A DNA stretch of 64,000 nt from Phyto melanocephala (lineage: Eukaryota; Arthropoda; Insecta; Diptera; Rhinophoridae), in the NCBI GenBank assembly GCA_941918925.1, contig OW799237.1, positions 55,912,997 to 55,976,996 on the forward strand, read 5' to 3'. Within the stretch, counting starts at the first letter, position 1; every line of letters begins with the position of its first letter. The position numbers were made by a program, and so were the translations under genes. Positions 1,202-52,554 of the stretch are shown in pieces. The notes beneath the pieces are model-generated. The model worked only from the letters and a program-made list of their open reading frames with translations. It made no database searches and was not told the DNA's origin.

Positions 1202-1570
1202 TGTACTATTAAAGTATGTTTTTTATAAGAAAGTAAAAACAAGTAAGAGTGCTATATTCGGCCATGCCGAATCTTATATACCCTTCACAACGTGTAGTCA
1301 TGCAATTACAGTAGTTTGTATCACCATTCATCTCATATGAAATACGCACATTCATATAAAAAACATACATATATAAAAACATCCCATTGTAAAATTAAAA
1401 ATTAACGTATGTATGTTAAAAAAAAAAAATTTAAAAAAAATTAAAAAATAATTAAAAAAAAAATTTAAAAATAAAAATTTAAAAAAAATAATTAAAATAT
1501 AAACAATAAATTTTAAACAAAAAAAAATAAAAAAAATTAAAAAAAATATTAAAAAAAAAATTTAAAAAAA

Positions 1571-2108
1571 ATTCTTGAAAAAGTTTAAAATTTTTATAAG
1601 TTATATTTTTAAATTCTCATTAACAAAATGAGAATTCAAAAATAAAACAAAAAACCATAAAAAACTTTTTCAAAAACCCAACCAACAATTTTTTTAATTT
1701 TGAATTTATTTTATTTTTCTAATCCCTTTAACATTTGGCTAACCGTTGGTTAACACGAAATGCTTATAAAGGCAACCGAAAAATAAAATCTTCTATAATA
1801 TTCTAGCTTAAACCCAACAACCAAATAAATATAATTGAAAAATTATGGGAGAATATCCCAAAAAAATTTAGTAAATTAACTTATAGAAGATTTTATTTTT
1901 CGGTTGCCCTTATAAGCATTTCGTGTTAACCAACGGTTAGCCAAATGTTAAAGGGATTAGAAAAATAAAATAAATTCAAAATTAAAAAAATTGTTGGTTG
2001 GGTTTTTGAAAAAGTTTTTTATGGTTTTTTGTTTTATTTTTGAATTCTCATTTTGTTAATGAGAATTTAAAAATATAACTTATAAAAATTTTAAACTTTT
2101 TCAAGAAT
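1571..2108. repeat. Near-perfect 227-bp inverted repeat
   Basis: Arms 1571-1797 and 1882-2108 are each 227 bp. By eye they differ at one base (AAAGGC against AAGGGC near the inner end). The 84-bp loop holds the start of the retrozyme unit. The left arm is thus an inverted copy of the middle of the same 360-bp unit. Confidence 0.9.
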
Positions 2109-2177
2109 TTGGGTAAAGGTTTACTGATGATCTGGCATAAGCACCAGTGAAATGCATATAAACCAGCTTAAACCCAA
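2109..2177 (+). ncRNA. Type I hammerhead ribozyme (360-nt unit)
   Basis: Parts in order: outer helix I TTGGGT (2109-2114); loop AAA; inner helix I GGTTTA (2118-2123); core CTGATGA (2124-2130); helix II CTGG (2132-2135), 8-nt loop, CCAG (2144-2147); core GAA plus A15.1 (2149-2152); palindromic helix III TGCA (2153-2156); U16.1 (2157) and A17 (2158); inner helix I TAAACC (2159-2164); loop AGCTTAA; outer helix I ACCCAA (2172-2177). All conserved core bases are present and both helix I segments pair perfectly. Predicted cleavage is between 2158 and 2159. A T-T mismatch (2131/2148) closes helix II. The 4-6-nt palindromic helix III has no room for a loop, which suggests dimeric cleavage. Confidence 0.85.
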
Positions 2178-2735
2178 CAACCAAATAAATATAATTGAAA
2201 AATTATGGGAGAATATCCCAAAAAATTTAGTAAATTAATTTAAAAAAAAATAATAATAAAAATATAAATAATATATTAAATAAAAAATAAAAAAAAAAAT
2301 TTAAAAAAATTTAAAAAAAATATAAAATATAAAAAAAAATTTCTTTGGCTCAGCTGGGATTCGATCCCACGTTTACTTTAACCAATATACAAGTTTGTAT
2401 GTATGTATGTTGTTGTTGTAATGTTGTTTTTGTGAAAAAAAAATCGAGGTGGTCGTGGGTTTTTGCTCATATCTCAGTTGTTTATGAACCGATGTGTCTG
2501 ATTTTCAATACCGATCTACTCCCGAATATTTCTGATATTTTAATACCTCACCCGGGTCCAAGCGATTTCGGGGGGCTTGACAAAGTTGATTTCAACATAC
2601 ACTCGGACAGACGGACAGACTGACAGGGCTTAATCGACTCCCCTATTCATAAGCTTTCAGAAAATATATACTTTATGGGGTCGGAAATGAAAATTGTATA
2701 AATTTCACACGGAATGACAAACCTATATATATCCT

Positions 2736-8722: not shown

Positions 8723-11148
8723 TGTATTCCCTTTTAATACTGCGCGATACAAATTAAACAGCATATTAATTTGCGTATAACTGGCTAAATTTTATTTTTA
8801 TTATTAATTCAAATGATATTATTTTTTAAAAATATATGGGCAATACGTTTTTATGCTATAACTTCCTGCTAAGTTGTCAAAAATAGTTGAATATTTGCCC
8901 GGGGATAGTTTTGAATTTCAGAATTCTGTGCATATCTATATATATAAAAGTGAAACTCTGTGTGTGTGTGTTCAATCGGACTCAAACTTTAGCAAGTTGT
9001 TGTACACATACCAGGGAGTGTTTATGGGTGGAAAAAAGTGGGCGGGGCTACGCCCATAAAAAATTAGTTATCAGTTTTAGCTACTTGCACTTGACCGATT
9101 TTTCTGAAACTTTGCACACATATTAAGCTGTCCTGACTAAATAATTTCGTGATAAAAAAGTGGGCGGGGCCACGCCCCTAAAAAAGTTTTAGTTTTGAAG
9201 TACTCGCACTAGACCGATTTTTCTGAAACTTTGCACACATATTAAGCTGTCATGACTTTATATTTTCGTGATTAAAAAAGTGGGCAGGGCCACGCCCATA
9301 AAAGAAAGTTTTAATTTTTAGGTTCTTGCACTGGACCGATTTTTCTGAAACTTTGCACACATATAGAACTGTCATGGCTAAATAAATTCGTGATTACAAA
9401 AGTGGGCAGTGCTACGCCCATAAAAAAAGTTATCATTTTCAGCTACTTGAACTTCACCGATTTTCCTGAAACTTTTCACACACATATTGAGCTGTCATGA
9501 CTATAAAATAAGTTGATTAGAACAGTGGGCAGGGCCACGCCCATTAAAAAAAGTTATAATTTTGAGGTACTTGCACTATACCGTTTTTTCTGAAAATGTG
9601 CACACATAATAAGCTGTCATGACTTTACAATTTCGTGATAAGAAAAGTTGCAGTGCCACGCCCATAAAAAAAAAGTTATCATTTTCAGCTACTTGAACTT
9701 CACCAATTTTTCTAAAACTTTGCGCACGTATCGAGCTGTCATGACTTTACAATTTTTTTTTTTTTAAGTATTTTCATTTATTCATATATATTTTTACAAA
9801 TTTACAATTTGGTGCCCCAGCGCCTTAAAGGCTTTATAGGGGCAAAAGGCAACTTTATATATTACAGAAAAAAAAATATAAACAAATATACAGAATTATT
9901 TTAAAGATATGTAAATAGAGTAAAAAAAGATTCAAATACGTTAGATTTCATAATTACATTAGAAGTGTTTCTATATTTTTAAGTAAGTGGTCTTTTATCT
10001 GATTTTTAAACGTAGAAATAACATTAATGTTTCGATAATTTACAGGCAATTTATTATATTCAATAGGCCCAGAAAATGAAATTCTTTGTTTGGTCAAATC
10101 AAGGCGACATCTTGCAAAACTTAAATTTTGAGCTTGTCTGGTATTTCTTTGCGTTCGAGCCAAATTATTAGAAAATTGTACAAATCGATGTTAATTGTCA
10201 CTTAGAGTCTTAAACACGTACATCAACACTTTTTGTTTATACAAGCCTCGTATTGGCAAAATATTTTTTGCATATCTTTTAAACAAATTTAACGTTGAAT
10301 ATCTCATAGGCAGATTAAATACAAGTTTTAACGCTTTATTTTGGGCAGATTGAAGTGACTTCAAGGAATTATTTATTCTACAACCATATACAGCAGGAAG
10401 ATAAGTAAAATGTGAATGTACAAGAGACTGATAAATAAGTAACTTTGTATCGCAGTTAAGCTTATTCCTAAACTTATATAGTATTCCAATGCCTGGTAAA
10501 ACTTGAGCTTTCAGTGAAAGTATATGCTCATCTCATAACAAATTTTGATTTAAGACAACTCCTAAGTATGTTACCATCTCAGATTCATTAATAGCGATTC
10601 CATCAACATGTACAAACATCTTCTCATCATTTTTTAGATTGTATGGTTTAAATCTTACAAATTTAGTCTTGGAGGGATTAATAACAAGTTTGTTGCATTG
10701 CGAAAATTCCGTTAGAATAGCCGCATCATATTCAATCTGTGTTTTTAGAACTTGTGAGTATTTAAATATAAGGATAAAACAAGCATACATCATCAGCATA
10801 CATAAATAACTTGCCGTTAAAGCCAATATTTTTCAGATCATTAATAAAAATCTTGAACAGTAAAGGACCAAGGACACTTCCTTGCGGAACTCCACAGGTT
10901 ACTGGTAGCATTGTACTTTTAGACTCACCAACTTCCAGCTTCCTGTTTGATAAATAACTTCGGAAAATGTCCAGAGTTTTGTTCGAAACTGCTATAATAG
11001 TAAGTTTTTTTATTAAAATATCATGGTTAACCAGATCAAAGGCTTTAGAATAAACAAAGAACACTCCTGCTACACCACTGCAGCCACCATCAAGCTCTCC
11101 ACAAATGTAATCAACCACAGTAACAACAGCTTCCTCGGTTCCAGAACC

Positions 11149-35550: not shown

Positions 35551-38500
35551 CTATAGACTCCGAAACTGTAAAACCGATCGGGCTCAAACTTTGGTAAGTT
35601 GTTGTACACATACCAGGGTGTGTTTATGGGTGAAAAAAAGTGGGCGGGGCTACGCCCATAAAAAATAGTTATCATATTAAGCTACTTGCACATGACCGAT
35701 TTTTCTGAAACTTTGCACACATATCGAGCTCTCATGACTAAATAATTTCGTGATTAGAAAAGTGGGCGGGGCCACGCCCATAAAAAAGTTTTAATTTTGA
35801 GGTACTTGCACTGGACCGATTTTTCTGAACCTTTGTACACATATTGAGCTGTCATGACTTCATAATTTCGTGATTAGAAAAGTGGGCGGGGCCACGCCAA
35901 TAAAAAAGTTTTAATTTTGAGGTACTTGCACTGGACCGATTTTTCTGAACCTTTGTACACATATTGAGCTGTCATGACTTCATAATTTCGTGATTAAAAA
36001 AGTGGGCAGGGCCACGCCAATAAAAAAAGTTATAATTTTGAGGTACTTCCACTGAACCGATTTTTCTGAAACTGTGCACACATATTGACCTGTCATGACT
36101 TGACAATTTCTTGATTAGAAAAGTGGGCTGTGCCACGCCCATTAAAAAAAAGAGATATTTTTGAGGTACTTCCACTAAACCGATTTTTCTGAAACTGTGC
36201 ACACATATTGACCTGTCATGATTTTATAATTTCGTGATTAGAAAAGTGGGCAGGGCCACGCCCATAAAAAAAGTTATAATTTTGAGGTACTTCCACTGGA
36301 CCGATTTTTCTGAAACTGTGCACACATATTGACCTGTCATGACTTTATAATTTCTTGATTAGAAAAGTGGGCTGTGCCACGCCCATAAAAAAAAGTTATA
36401 ATTTTGAGGTACTTCCACTGGACCGATTTTTCTGAAACTTTGCACACATATTGAGCTGTCATGATTTTATAATCTCGTGATTAGAAAAGTGGGCAGGGCC
36501 ACATCCATAAAAAAAAGTTATAATTTTAAGGTACTTCCACTGGACCGATTTTTCTAAAACTTAGCACACATATTGACCTGTCATGATTTTATAATTTCGT
36601 GATTAGAAAGCTGGGCAGGGCCACGCCCATAAAAAAAAGTTATAATTTTGAGGTACTTCCACTGGACCGCTTTTTCTGAAACTGTGCACACATATTGACC
36701 TGTCATGACTTTACAATTTCCTGATTAGAAAAGTGGGCTGTGCCACGCCCATAAAAAAAAGTTATAATTTTGAGGTACTTCCACTGGACACATATTGACC
36801 TGTCATAATTTTATAATTTCGTGATTAGAAAAGTGGCCAATAAAAAAAGTTATAATTTTGAGGTACTTCCACTGAACCGATTTTTCTGAAACTGTGCACA
36901 CATATTGACCTGTCATGACTTTACAATTTCTTGATTAGAAAAGTGGGCTGTGCCACGCCCATAAAAAAAAGTTATAATTTTGAGGTACTTTCACTGGACC
37001 GATTTTTCTGAAACTTTGCACACATATTGAACTGTCATGATTTTGTAATCCTGTAATTAGAAAAGTGGGCAGGGCCACACCCGTAAAAAAAGTTATAATT
37101 TTGAGGTACTTGCACTGGACCGATTTTTCTAAAACTTTGCACACATATTGACCTGTCATGATTTTATAATTTCGTGATTAGAAAGCTGGGCAGGGCCACG
37201 CCCATAAAAAAAAGTTATAATTTTGAGGTACTTCCACTGGACCGCTTTTTCTGAAACTGTGCACACATGTTGACCTGTCATGACTTTACAATTCCTTGAT
37301 TAGAAAAGTGGGCTGTGCCACGCCCACTAAAAAAAAGTTATAATTTTGAGGTACTTCCACTGGACCGATTTTTCTGAAACTTAGCACACATATTGACCTG
37401 TCATGATTTTATAATTTCGTGATTAGAAAAGTGGGCAGGGCCACGCCCATAAAAAAAGTTATAATTTTGAGGTACTTCCACTGGACCGATTTTTCTGAAA
37501 CTGTGCACACATATTGACCTGTCATGACTTTATAATTTCTTGATTAGAAAAGTGGGCTGTGCCACGCCCATAAAAAAAGTTATAATTTTGAGGTACTTCC
37601 ACTGGACCGATTTTTCTGAAACTGTGCACACATATTGACCTGTCATGACTTTACAATTTCTTGTTTAGAAAAGTGGGCTGTGCCACGCCCATAAAAAAAA
37701 GTTATAATTTTGAGGTACTTTAACTGGACCGATTTTTCTGAAACTTTACACGCATATTGAGCTGTCATGATTTTATAATTTCGTGATTAGAAAAGTGGGC
37801 AAGGCCACGCCCATAAAAAAAGTTATAATTTTGAGGTACTTCCACTAGACCGATTTTTCTAAAACTGTGCACACATATTGACCTGTCGTGACTTTACAGT
37901 TTCTTGATTAGAAAAGTGGGCAGGGCAACGCCCATAAAAAAAAGTTATAATTTTGAGGTACTTCCACTGAACCGATTTTGCTGAAACTTTGCACACATAT
38001 TGGGCTGTCGTGATTTTATAATTTTGTGATTAGAAAAGTGGGCAGGGCCACACCTATAAAAAAAAGTTATAATTTTGAGGTACTTCCACTGGACCGATTT
38101 TTCTGAAACTGTGCACACATATTGACCTGTCATGACTTTACAATTTCGTGATTAGAAAGAAAAGTGGGCGGGGCCACGCCCATAAAATAGTTTTATTTTG
38201 AGGTACTTGCACTGCACCGATTTTTCTGAAACTGTGCACACATATTGACCTGTCATGACTTTACAATTTCTTGATTAGAAAAGTGGGCTGTGCCACGCCC
38301 ATAAAAAAAGTTCTCATTTTCAGCTACTCAAACTTCACCGATTTTTCTAAAACTTTTCACACACATATTGAAGTCTCATGATTATACAATTTCGTGATTA
38401 GAAAAGTGGGCAGGGCCACGCCCATAAAAAAAGATATAATTTTTCGGTACTTGCTCTGGACCGATTTTTTTAAAACTTTGCACACATATTGAGTTGTCAT

Positions 38501-38769
38501 GACTTTACAATTTCGTGATTAGAAAATTGGGCAGTGCCACGCCCATAAGAATTATAATTTTCAGCTACTTGAACTTTACCGATTCTTCTGATACTTTGCA
38601 CACATAATGAGCTGTCATGACTATACAGTTTCGTTATTAGAAAAGTGGGCAGGGCAACGCCCATTAAAAAAAGTTATAATTTTTGTTTTTTGCACTGGAT
38701 ATTCAATTTAAATTCAGAATACATTTTTATGCATTAAGGGGCGTAGCAACGCGCGCCGGGCTTTTCTGG
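35499..38769 (+). mobile_element. Helitron family 1 with about 26-unit array
   Basis: Starts TCTATATATATAAAAGTGAA after an A at 35498. The leader has a TG microsatellite and AGCTATAGACTCCGAAACTG. Ends GCGCGCCGGGCTTTTCTGG before a T; CTGG fits the CTRR rule for Helitron ends. About 26 units of about 120 bp fill 35640-38700. Units fall into GGGCAGGGCC and GGGCTGTGCC types that partly alternate, a higher-order pattern. Open frames in it (35972-36202, 36935-37159, 37945-38133) are repeat artefacts. No Rep/helicase. Confidence 0.9.
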
Positions 38770-38847
38770 TGAAATATAACACAAAGCAATTGACGTTTTG
38801 GAAGTCGGCCAGAATTATTTGTCCAAACTTATTTCATGTCTTTCATA

Positions 38848-39042
38848 TATTATTGAGTTAATACGCAATTTACCAACATCTGTTTTTACTGTATTCCTTT
38901 GTAGTAGTTTAAAGCATCGTGTTTTTGTTATATTTTTTAATATTACATTTGAACTTTCTATTTTTATATTTAATTTTAAGTTTATAAGTTCAATGTGATA
39001 ATGACAGAATATCTAGGAAAATTTAGTTATCCGATACTTTAC
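38848..39042 (+). repeat. Diverged relative of the 497-bp ribozyme repeat
   Basis: Matches the 497-bp unit at 49411-50709 in GAGTTA(G/A)TACG, CTACCAACATCTGTTTTT-like, TATTACATTTGAACTTT and AGTTC(T/A)ATGTGATAATGACA, ending at CCGATACT. An internal segment of about 150 bp is missing. The similarity stops exactly where the hammerhead of the 497-bp unit begins. Confidence 0.75.
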
Positions 39043-42419: not shown

Positions 42420-43119
42420 GCTATAGACTCTGAAACTGTAAAACCGATCGGGCTCAAACTTTGGTAAGTTGTTGTACACATACCGGGGAGTGTTTATGGA
42501 TGAAAAAAAGTGGGCGGGGCCACGCCCATAAAAAATTAGTTATCAGTTTTAGCTACTTGCACTTGACCGATTTTTCTGAAACTTTGCACACATATCGAGC
42601 TGTCATGACTAAATAATTTCGTGATGAGAAAAGTGGGCGGGGCCACGCCCCTTAAAAACTTTTAATTTTGAGGTACTTGCACTGGACCGATTTTTCTGAA
42701 ACTTTGCACACATATTAAGCTGTCATGACTAAATAATTTCGTGATTAGAAAAGTGGGCAGTGCCACGCCCATAAAAAAAAGGTATCATTTTGAAGTACTT
42801 GCACTGGACCGATTATTCTGAAACTTTGCACACATATTGAGCTGTTATGACTTTACAATTTCGTGATAAGAAAAGTGGGCAGGGCCACGCCCATAAAAAC
42901 AATTTTAATTTTGAGGTACTTGCACTGGTCCGATTCTTCTGAAACTTTGCACACATATTGAGCTGTTATGACTTTACAATTTCGTGACTAGAAAAGTGGG
43001 CAATGCCACGCCCATAAAAAAATTATAATTTTTAGGTTTTTTCACTTGATATTCAATTAAAATTCAGAATGCATTTCGATTCATTAAGGGGCGTAGCAAC
43101 GCGCGCCGGGTTTGGCTAG
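42355..43119 (+). mobile_element. Helitron family 1 copy in the 5' LTR
   Basis: TCTATATATATAAAAGTGAA to GCGCGCCGGGTTTGGCTAG, flanked by A and T. The leader has a (TG)n run of about 19 repeats and five array units. The orthologous copy is at 51788-52554 in the 3' LTR. Confidence 0.92.
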
Positions 43120-49094: not shown

Positions 49095-49468
49095 TGTGAC
49101 GGTGATAAATTTTAATTTAAACAGATTTGCATTCCACGGTAATTAAAATTTTACTGTAGGTTTTATATACCAAGTTTATTCTTTTTTATTTTTGATTTAG
49201 CCTTGATTTTTACTTTTGAAAATTGTTAGAAAATTTTTGAACTTTTACAAAATAAATTTTAATAGAGCTGAACACAAAGTAAAGATTATCAAATAAAAGG
49301 GTTTTTATAACGGAAAGGAATAGTGATTCAACATAACTCTTAAATACTATAATTTTTATTTGATGCGGAGAATAGTTAAACAATCTTGTGGCAGTTATAT
49401 TTTTATATTAGGCTATAAGTTCTATGTGATAATGACAGAATATCTAGGAAAAGTTAGTCATCCGATAC

Positions 49469-49536
49469 TAGCTGAGTGGAATGCATTTTCGAAACCAGCT
49501 ACGGTTTCATCATCAGCACTCTTTTGATCAGAGCTA
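49469..49536 (-). ncRNA. Type I hammerhead ribozyme, unit 1
   Basis: Minus strand in order: outer helix I TAGCT (49536-49532), loop CTGATCAAAA, inner helix I GAGTG (49521-49517), core CTGATGA (49516-49510), one extra T, helix II GAAACC/GGTTTC with 6-nt loop (49508-49491), core GAAA (49490-49487), palindrome ATGCAT (49486-49481), U16.1 and C17 (49480, 49479), inner helix I CACTC (49478-49474), outer AGCTA (49473-49469). Predicted cut between 49479 and 49478. The extra T next to helix II is unusual but all core bases are kept. Confidence 0.8.
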
Positions 49537-49965
49537 CAAATGTTGTGTGTAAATATCGACTATTTAACTCAGTATTTATTGAAATTTGAAATATAGAATT
49601 ATTTGTTCTAATTGATTTATGTATTTCATATAACATTGAGTTAGTACGAAATCTACCAACATCTGTTTTTCCTGTATTCTTTTTGCACGTCATTACCACA
49701 GGTAATTAATAGTTGCCTTTAGCTACAGATCCACAGATGTCGCTAAAGCAATTTTTGCAATTATGCAGTTTCATTATATGTCACATGTGTTCTAAACAAG
49801 ATGGTATTAGTTGAACAATGTTTTTATTTTTACACCATGCCCTGTGTTTGTTGTATTTTTAAAGTATTACATTTGAACTTTTTAATTTGTATTATATTTT
49901 TATATTAGGCTATAAGTTCTATGTGATAATGACAGAATATCTAGGAAAAGTTAGTCATCCGATAC

Positions 49966-50033
49966 TAGCTGAGTGGAATGCATTTTCGAAACCAGCTACG
50001 GTTTCATCATCAGCACTCTTTTGATCAGAGCTA
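49966..50033 (-). ncRNA. Type I hammerhead ribozyme, unit 2
   Basis: Same sequence as the ribozyme of unit 1, displaced by exactly 497 bp. Confidence 0.8.
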
Positions 50034-50462
50034 CAAATGTTGTGTGTAAATATCAACTATTTAACTCAGTATTTATTGAAATTTGAAATATAGAATTATT
50101 TGTTCTAATTGATTTATGTATTTCATATAACATTGAGTTAGTACGAAATCTACCAACATCTGTTTTTCCTGTATTCTTTTTGCACGTCATTACCACAGGT
50201 AATTAATAGTTGCCTTTAGCTACAGATCCACAGATGTCGCTAAAGCAATTTTTGCAATTATGCAGTTTCATTATATGTCACATGTATTCTAAACAAGATG
50301 GTATTAGTTGAACAATGTTTTTATTTTTACACCATGCCCTGTGTTTGTTGTATTTTTAAAGTATTACATTTGAACTTTTTAATTTGTATTATATTTTTAT
50401 ATTAGGCTATAAGTTCTATGTGATAATGACAGAATATCTAGGAAAAGTTAGTCATCCGATAC

Positions 50463-50530
50463 TAGCTGAGTGGAATGCATTTTCGAAACCAGCTACGGTT
50501 TCATCATCAGCACTCTTTTGATCAGAGCTA
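50463..50530 (-). ncRNA. Type I hammerhead ribozyme, unit 3
   Basis: Same sequence as units 1 and 2, displaced by 994 bp from unit 1. All three copies are intact in core and helices. Confidence 0.8.
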
Positions 50531-51787
50531 CAAATGTTGTGTGTAAATATCAACTATTTAACTCAGTATTTATTGAAATTTGAAATATAGAATTATTTGT
50601 TCTAATTGATTTATGTATTTCATATAACATTGAGTTAGTACGAAATCTACCAACATCTGTTTTTCCTGTATTCTTTTTGCACGTCATTACCACAGGTAAT
50701 TAATAGTTAATAGGCCTGAGTGTGGTGCAAACCGTAAAAGTGCTTAGGGTTAATCTTTAAATAGGCAATGCAAGATTCTGTTTTATTTTTTTTTTTGAAA
50801 TTTTGTTGAAGCAACTAATAAATCAGTTAAAAGTAAGCTGGTATCGTGTTATTTCTAGTAAACGGAACAACGTTATTCAAATTTACATCGGGTCTTTCTG
50901 ATAAGGAAAACTTTGAATTTAATCTTATATTGAGGTGGCAAAACATCATTCTAATCTAACGTAAATAAACATCAAATTAAGTAATAAAATTTATTGAGGT
51001 ATATCGCAAGCTTTAGCTTAAATAAGCTAAATTTTGGTCGTTGTTTTAAAAGAAAAAAAGGAAAGAGAATAATTAGAACGGATTGGGAGTTAATTGCAAA
51101 TATTAATAATCTACTTTTTTTTTATTTATAAATAATAATATTTTTTTTTAATTCTAAATTCTTAAACACATTGTTGGTTTGTGTTGAACTTAATCGTGTA
51201 ATTTACGCTAAAATATCTTACATTGTTTAAAAATATTTAAATTAGTCACTTTAATTAGTTTTGTGTTTTTTTTCTTATAAATTAAATACTCTATAGTTAT
51301 TCTCTATCTAAACAAATATTGATTTTTGACATACATACCCTTAATATAAAACTATAACTGATATTGTTCCTTTATATAACTTGTGAGTGACAAACTTTAA
51401 ATTTATTACACGATCATTCAGCTGTCATCCGGCGCCTTTTGATATCGTGGGACATTATAAAAAGTAAGTTGTAATATTATTTATTTAACAGTCACATTTA
51501 ACATATACTTGAATTAAACTTAGAGCAATACTAGCTGGAAATATTAATTTTTCGTTATTTTTTTATATTATATTGCATAATGAATAATTAACTGAAACTC
51601 ATAAAGAAAAGTAAAACTAAAAGAACTAAATTTTAAATATAATATTTTTTAATTATCGTCGTAAATAAAGTCCAATTAAGGTGACTATCATAGTTTTAGA
51701 CAATTTTTTTTACATAATTCTTAATTTGCTTATTGTGTATTTAACCTTTACTTAACTATTTAATTTGAATTTTATTTCGTTGTATAA

Positions 51788-51854: not shown

Positions 51855-52554
51855 GCTATAGACTCTGAAACTGTAAAACCGATCGGGCTCAAACTTTGGT
51901 AAGTTGTTGTACACATACCGGGGAGTGTTTATGGATGAAAAAAAGTGGGCGGGGCCACGTCCATAAAAAATTAGTTATCAGTTTTAGCTACTTGCACTTG
52001 ACCGATTTTTCTGAAACTTTGCACACATATCAAACTGTCATGACTAAATAATTTCGTGATAAGAAAAGTGGGCGGGGCCACGCCCCTAAAAAGTTTTAAT
52101 TTTGAGGTACTTGCACTGGACCGATTTTTCTGAAACTTTGCACACATATTAAGCTGTCGTGACTTTATAATTTTGTGATTAAAAAAGTGGGCGAGGCCAC
52201 GCCCATAAAAAAAGGCTATAATTTTGAGGTACTTTCACCAGACTGATTTCTCTCAAACTTTGTACACATATTGAGCTGTCATGACTAAATAATTTCGTGA
52301 TTAGAAAAGTGGGCAGTGCCACGCCCATAAAAAAAAGGTATCATTTTGAAGTACTTGCACTAGTCCGATTCTTCTGAAACTTTGCACACATATTGAGCTG
52401 TTATGACTTTACAATTTCGTGACTAGAAAAGTGGGCAATGCCACGCCCATAAAAAAATTATAATTTTTAGGTTTTTTCACTTGATATTCAATTAAAATTC
52501 AAAATGCATTTCGATTCATTAAGGGGCGTAGCAACGCGCGCCGGGTTTGGCTAG
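51788..52554 (+). mobile_element. Helitron family 1 copy in the 3' LTR
   Basis: Same boundaries and LTR position as 42355-43119, but (TG)n is longer and the array differs: it has a unit (GTGGGCGAGGCCACGCCC) missing from the 5' copy, and units 3 and 4 of the 5' copy are fused here. Confidence 0.92.

Follow-up and report, generated by a model that had tools for sequence, protein, structure and literature searches.

What kind of element carries the hammerhead-like motif at positions 2109-2177 (plus strand) of the 64,000-nt stretch of Phyto melanocephala DNA analyzed here (the window), and by which route was it inserted? The initial annotation had described a type I hammerhead ribozyme in a 360-bp unit and had taken it for a non-coding, circular-RNA-type retroelement in a fly. 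Its ribozyme parts were all found at the places given: an outer helix I (TTGGGT, 2109-2114, with ACCCAA, 2172-2177), an inner helix I (GGTTTA, 2118-2123, with TAAACC, 2159-2164), the cores CTGATGA (2124-2130) and GAAA (2149-2152), helix II (CTGG, 2132-2135, with CCAG, 2144-2147) and the palindrome ATGCAT of helix III (2152-2157), all on the plus strand, with the predicted cut after A2158, between 2158 and 2159. The unit length has to be corrected, as unit spacing in the tandem locus L009 gives 359 bp. The assignment of the motif draws on the parts located in the sequence and on folding, scanning, constraint and comparison.

When the window was scanned for the core sequences CTGANGA and GAAA together with helices of set length (4 bp for helix II, 6 bp for inner helix I), one match was returned, and 150 resampled windows of equal dinucleotide make-up gave none; the 6-bp rule overlooks a second hammerhead array in the window, the inner helix I of which comprises 5 bp. 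Minimum-energy folds of the isolated motif and of the whole unit retain both parts of helix I as well as helix II. The isolated motif folds no more stably than shuffled sequences (z -0.6), and the whole unit is stabler than its shuffles (z -6.0). Helix II is flanked by an unpaired U on each side, giving a U.U at its base, a position usually held by the pair G10.1-C11.1 in hammerheads. The covariance search that the initial annotation had suggested did not bear it out, an outcome that the annotation had counted as a refutation: Rfam scans of the motif matched no hammerhead family, RF00163 included, at the gathering threshold or even at E<=10. Since the second hammerhead array in the window is likewise unmatched by the Rfam model, the Rfam hammerhead library seems to be blind to this variant. 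Over the whole genome, 73 of 57,102 candidates for RF00163 were scored, and none of 14 control genomes was positive, so that this search carries no weight either way; the exact 47-nt motif had no match among viral contigs. As an Rfam match is absent, identification as a hammerhead rests on the core, the pairing, related motifs and constraint.

With regard to related motifs, we compared 13 hammerheads from retrozymes and several families of Penelope-like elements (PLEs). Their helix sequences are quite different and the pairing is kept, each hammerhead preserving four or more of the six initial helix I pairs and at least three consecutive pairs in helix II. In all 13, one additional unpaired base precedes helix II; in the 359-bp family, another follows this helix. 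These motifs show the minimal features of PLE-type hammerheads, i.e., a CUGANGA plus GAAA core and helices I and II kept across differing sequences. With regard to constraint, variants were regarded as template-level when present in at least two loci or in most units of one locus. They occur at 0 of 47 sites in the inner ribozyme versus 30 of 289 sites outside the ribozyme, with private variants at 21 inner and 61 outside sites (Fisher p = 8e-4 on template-level versus private counts and 0.013 per site, with ribozyme boundaries set by us). For the whole 69-nt motif, which contains one template-level site, the corresponding values are 0.007 and 0.015. Variants in the inner ribozyme fail to pass through transposition, which shows that the ribozyme is under constraint. 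As judged from sequence, the RNA is likely to cut itself via the hammerhead.

In the 740-Mb genome from which the window stems, at least 402 sequences match the 359-bp unit (best candidates scored), and the loci fetched contain tandem units, up to 13 full ones on one side. Stop-to-stop open reading frames of at least 120 amino acids overlapping 1569-2240 were not found, nor was any frame for a reverse transcriptase with GIY-YIG endonuclease in the unit, which is not a PLE itself. In the window, one full unit lies at 1881-2238 (plus strand), complete except for base 359, at which the outer end is located. It is preceded by a partial unit starting from unit position 285 (1805-1880, plus strand), the inner end of the plus-side cDNA, by a 6-nt filler (1799-1804) at the variable junction where the two cDNAs meet in the centre and by a left arm (1569-1798, minus strand). 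This arm is a second copy of unit positions 1-230; its 230 nt are 100% complementary to 1881-2110 and we read it as cDNA primed from the other target strand. Two sites on the plus strand are putative starts of reverse transcription, a short-end site around unit position 316 (2191-2196, ...AAATAAATATAATT) and a long-end site around unit position 358 (2234-2238, ...AAATTTAGTAAATTAA). The outer end of the window's insertion resides at the long-end site, while its left end is aberrant (unit position 230). A candidate target site duplication, AATTTAAAAAAAA, is present at 1559-1571 and 2237-2249; since the target consists of low-complexity A/T DNA, this candidate is weak. Elsewhere in the window, arrays of a repeat of about 121 bp are situated at 35636-38683, 9032-9755, 42506-43037 and 51941-52472, and a perfect 55-bp tandem duplication lies beside a larger inverted repeat at 2734-2843.

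The general rule emerges from the 39 loci of our sample (38 fetched plus the window). The insertions are divergent tandem arrays, minus units followed by plus units: both strands are present at 86% identity or more in 35 of the 39, and all 35 strand changes are minus-plus, none plus-minus. L031 and L045 have units on one strand only, and L040 and L042 contain short plus pieces below the 86% filter. The outer ends cluster at two fixed sites with a spacing of about 42 nt, in unit orientation around 358 (long) and 316 (short), for which the script allowed the ranges 354-364 and 312-322; microhomology gives a few bases' leeway. Both ends were assignable in 36 loci (all except L031, L036 and L045), 32 of which have one long and one short end and none two alike. 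Assignment was by script in 26 of the 32 (for L023 after restriction to the main array by hand) and by eye in L012, L014, L037, L040, L042 and L046. The remaining four, L010, L018, L024 and the window, combine a long with an aberrant end, and the short-end site, which serves as outer end in the 32, is not used in the window's insertion. Were the two sites chosen with equal chance and independently at each end, 32 mixed cases out of 32 would have p = 5e-10. Poly(A) tails were not seen at the ends of this family.

These ends bear on two explanations that involve no priming of both target strands. Long inverted tandem arrays with target duplications could be formed by a foldback-type DNA transposon or a satellite with long inverted repeats, in which case the hammerhead would be accidental. 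However, the termini are not plain inverted repeats, one side being about 42 nt longer in 32 of 36 loci, and the constraint is specific to the ribozyme, the motif of which is absent from all 150 resampled windows; we rejected this explanation and give it next to no chance. A single self-primed cDNA could alternatively snap back and make the inverted arm, with only one target strand primed. Taken alone, the window with its perfect 230-bp arms and 82-nt loop resembles such a product, and self-priming has been proposed for head-to-head PLE copies in the sections of PMC3846280 considered here. The two sides should then mirror each other from the centre and the second end should not be fixed, but in 32 of 36 loci the far end occupies a fixed site of its own, side lengths can differ (13 versus 2 full units in L009) and junctions connect unrelated unit positions. 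On these grounds this possibility was also rejected, and we consider it very improbable.

The same architecture recurs in a second retrozyme family, represented in the window by an array of about 2.6 copies of a 497-bp unit (49395-50708, minus strand) with its outer end at the short site (unit position 126) and with cores of the hammerhead, likewise on the minus strand, at 50510, 50013 and 49516. The hammerhead reads GAGTG-CTGATGA-T-GAAACC...GGTTTC-GAAAATGCATTC-CACTC. An inverted partner of this array was not seen in the window. The unit has at least 171 matches in the genome, and eight of ten double-sided loci among the matches listed combine a short end at about 126-139 of 497 with a long end at about 161-171. 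The region C1:67414132-67422836 (L082, L083 and L100) is rearranged or compound: it has two short ends and one long end, and its left flank recurs inverted inside the array, beside the second short end. The locus at C2:72941287 ends at positions 78 and 85, neither of which is a fixed site. In the eight simple loci, the two ends have 10-13 nt in common (counted with element letters, no control), and three of nine fetched long ends run into A-runs (L087, L093 and L098). The window also contains, at 38811-39038 (minus strand), two older pieces that match the 497-bp unit at 84-86%.

Which enzyme could make such ends? A Pfam GIY-YIG search over the genome found one locus, so PLEs were sought by a reverse transcriptase motif. 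The best 150 of 777 candidates were scored as PLE matches, many of them in open frames of more than 800 amino acids. Among these 150, adjacent matches on opposite strands within 8 kb are arranged minus-plus in 18 cases and plus-minus in none. All five PLE arrays examined have one short and one long end: 3 of 3 pairs, judged by eye, and, in another PLE family, 2 of 2 arrays. Two fixed putative start sites 30-45 nt apart with a tail on one end only are found in 32 of 36, 8 of 10 and 5 of 5 cases for the 359-bp family, the 497-bp family and the PLEs, respectively. A minimal hammerhead-like motif is present in 27 of 30 PLE loci. In PMC11167929, a purified PLE protein is reported to cut both strands and extend them, beginning at two internal sites of the RNA that bound a "tail"; its start site did not differ between strands, whereas most insertions studied here have one of each.

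The PLE protein encoded at L049 is a candidate for the trans-acting protein of the retrozyme. It contains the Pfam domain RVT_1 and shows 51% identity over 96% to a Drosophila virilis protein of 857 aa. Among 120 listed relatives of this Penelope protein those named are from flies, which lends indirect support to the earlier placement "in a fly". The L049 family retains Y-I...Y-x-G, R and H at its C terminus, residues compatible with a GIY-YIG endonuclease; the Pfam GIY-YIG model did not match the L049 protein, and a profile of 14 PLE proteins retrieved solely reverse transcriptases among solved structures. A search for DNA common to 30 PLE loci and the retrozyme gave nothing convincing, short A/T-rich matches being the best, which counts against the mechanism proposed below. 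In PLE loci L048-L081 the tails seem, by eye, to pair with a stretch upstream of the short site, with GACCTT...AAGGTC in one family and GATCTT...AAGATC in another, a compensatory change. A related hammerhead, in which outer helix I is CCGAT/ATCGG and helix II carries a compensatory change, is found near the PLE copies at L049, L057 and L067 (on the opposite strand in L049) and possibly represents a third retrozyme family.

Twin priming is another route to 5' inversions, and a LINE protein could mobilize the retrozyme in this way; the three of nine long ends of the 497-bp family that run into A-runs are what a poly(A)-primed element might leave. The ends of the 359-bp family lack poly(A), however, and two internal starts together with a single-sided tail, traits shared with the PLEs of this genome, have been described for PLEs (PMC11167929 and the sections of PMC3846280 considered). 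Mobilization by a LINE was thus rejected, and we give it slightly less credence still than the self-primed cDNA. PLEs have been called "a strong candidate" for moving retrozymes in the part of PMC7229834 considered here.

Target duplications of about 10 bp accompany the insertions: in flanking DNA only, a stretch of at least 8 nt is common to both sides in 19 of 26 true pairs (those of the script-assigned loci) versus 44 of 650 mismatched pairs. Duplications of more than 4 bp, as expected for metazoan non-LTR retrozymes, are present. Together with dispersed matches, tandem units, the lack of an open reading frame and the presence of PLEs in the genome, they sustain the initial view of a non-coding retroelement of retrozyme/Penelope type. 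That interpretation holds in part, as it included neither the inverted arm, nor the two fixed ends, nor the link to Penelope. Central junctions are located at scattered unit positions, often with overlaps of a few bases (microhomology) or templated filler, as in microhomology end joining. We looked across the central junctions for an accumulation of cDNA ends at the predicted cut and saw none, so cleavage leaves no direct mark. In a list compiled by hand, 20 of 37 left-side inner cDNA ends fall at unit positions 31-90 (window 1911-1970), inside a predicted hairpin that may be a stop site for reverse transcriptase.

The variants carried by the units point at the template. Across 125 full units in 38 loci, mean differences amount to 2.5 within a side, 2.4 between sides and 8.2 between loci. 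In the 15 loci with at least three full units, 44 variants occur in all units, 119 in one and 11 are intermediate, and locus-wide variants are common to both sides of a locus. As sides and units are alike and intermediate variants few, both cDNAs probably stem from one RNA or from near-identical RNAs. A circular template fits best and the RNA was probably circular, although a linear multimer from a homogeneous array fits too. It is conceivable that the same element and enzyme employed a linear multimeric transcript, with the hammerhead idle during insertion and circles absent or by-products. Tandem source arrays exist, PLE RNAs with hammerhead mutations kept insertion activity in vitro (PMC11167929), the predicted cut shows no accumulation of junctions, and a transcript of a homogeneous array would yield much the same variant pattern. 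Linear multimers would account for the arrays nearly as well as circles. The constraint on the ribozyme speaks against an idle hammerhead, as do the low share of intermediate variants (11 of 174) and sides that are as alike as units within a side, which is what one small template predicts. We regard a linear template as unlikely, though it deserves more weight than the other alternatives.

Taken together, we consider it probable that the element is a non-autonomous retrozyme of the metazoan type, mobilized by a PLE protein that primes both target strands on one RNA, probably a circle. The anatomy of the insertions suggests both the tie to PLEs and dual-strand priming on one small RNA. In the mechanism that we propose, the RNA would be cut into 359-nt units by the hammerhead, acting as a dimer via the ATGCAT palindrome, and the units would probably be closed into circles. 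A PLE protein of the same genome would cut AT-rich DNA and begin cDNA on both target strands, at the short site for one and at the long site of the same RNA for the other. Each cDNA could go round the template several times until the two meet and would then be joined to the other by microhomology end joining. On balance, but only just, we favor a broader proposal: animal retrozymes may be dedicated parasites of PLEs, and PLE insertion itself may consist of two first-strand cDNAs, each with its own start site per strand, that roll round one circular RNA and are connected by end joining rather than by a DNA-templated second-strand jump, with the one-end tail corresponding to the distance between the start sites. 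Dual priming would also explain head-to-head PLE copies without self-priming.

The enzyme moving animal retrozymes has so far been a guess, and the insertion route of PLEs is only partly known. The genome studied here offers hundreds of young copies in one chromosome-level assembly, with an apparent enzyme signature at both ends, which renders the PLE link, the rule of one site per strand and the small shared template testable. In the titles and abstract openings of the literature searched, which mostly excluded subscription papers, we found no report of divergent two-ended retrozyme arrays.

The retrozyme is a new addition to the animal retrozyme class. As far as the parts of the paper considered here describe them, metazoan non-LTR retrozymes (Cervera and de la Peña, 2020, PMC7229834) share the type I hammerhead, low-GC tandem units of 170-400 bp, the lack of LTR features, target duplications of more than 4 bp and the presence of PLEs in the genome, and their hosts include insects. 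They differ from the element described here, in which helix III is palindromic and loopless and helix II is preceded by a bulged base; arrays that are divergent and two-ended go unmentioned in these parts, and the word "inverted" has no occurrence in the main text. Plant LTR retrozymes (PMC4918200) are likewise non-autonomous retroelements with a hammerhead and circular RNA (for our element, we infer the circles), but type III hammerheads, LTRs and 4-bp target duplications, listed for them in the same parts of PMC7229834, were not seen here. The likeness to PLEs is closest in the insertions themselves: as described in PMC11167929 and in the sections of PMC3846280 considered, PLEs share the divergent arrangement, AT-rich targets, a minimal hammerhead and a tail of about 30-40 nt that may be present on one of the two inverted ends (the pLTRs), and the latter source adds short target duplications of 8-10 bp. 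Unlike PLEs, the 359-bp unit encodes no protein, and the sequence of its tail is its own.
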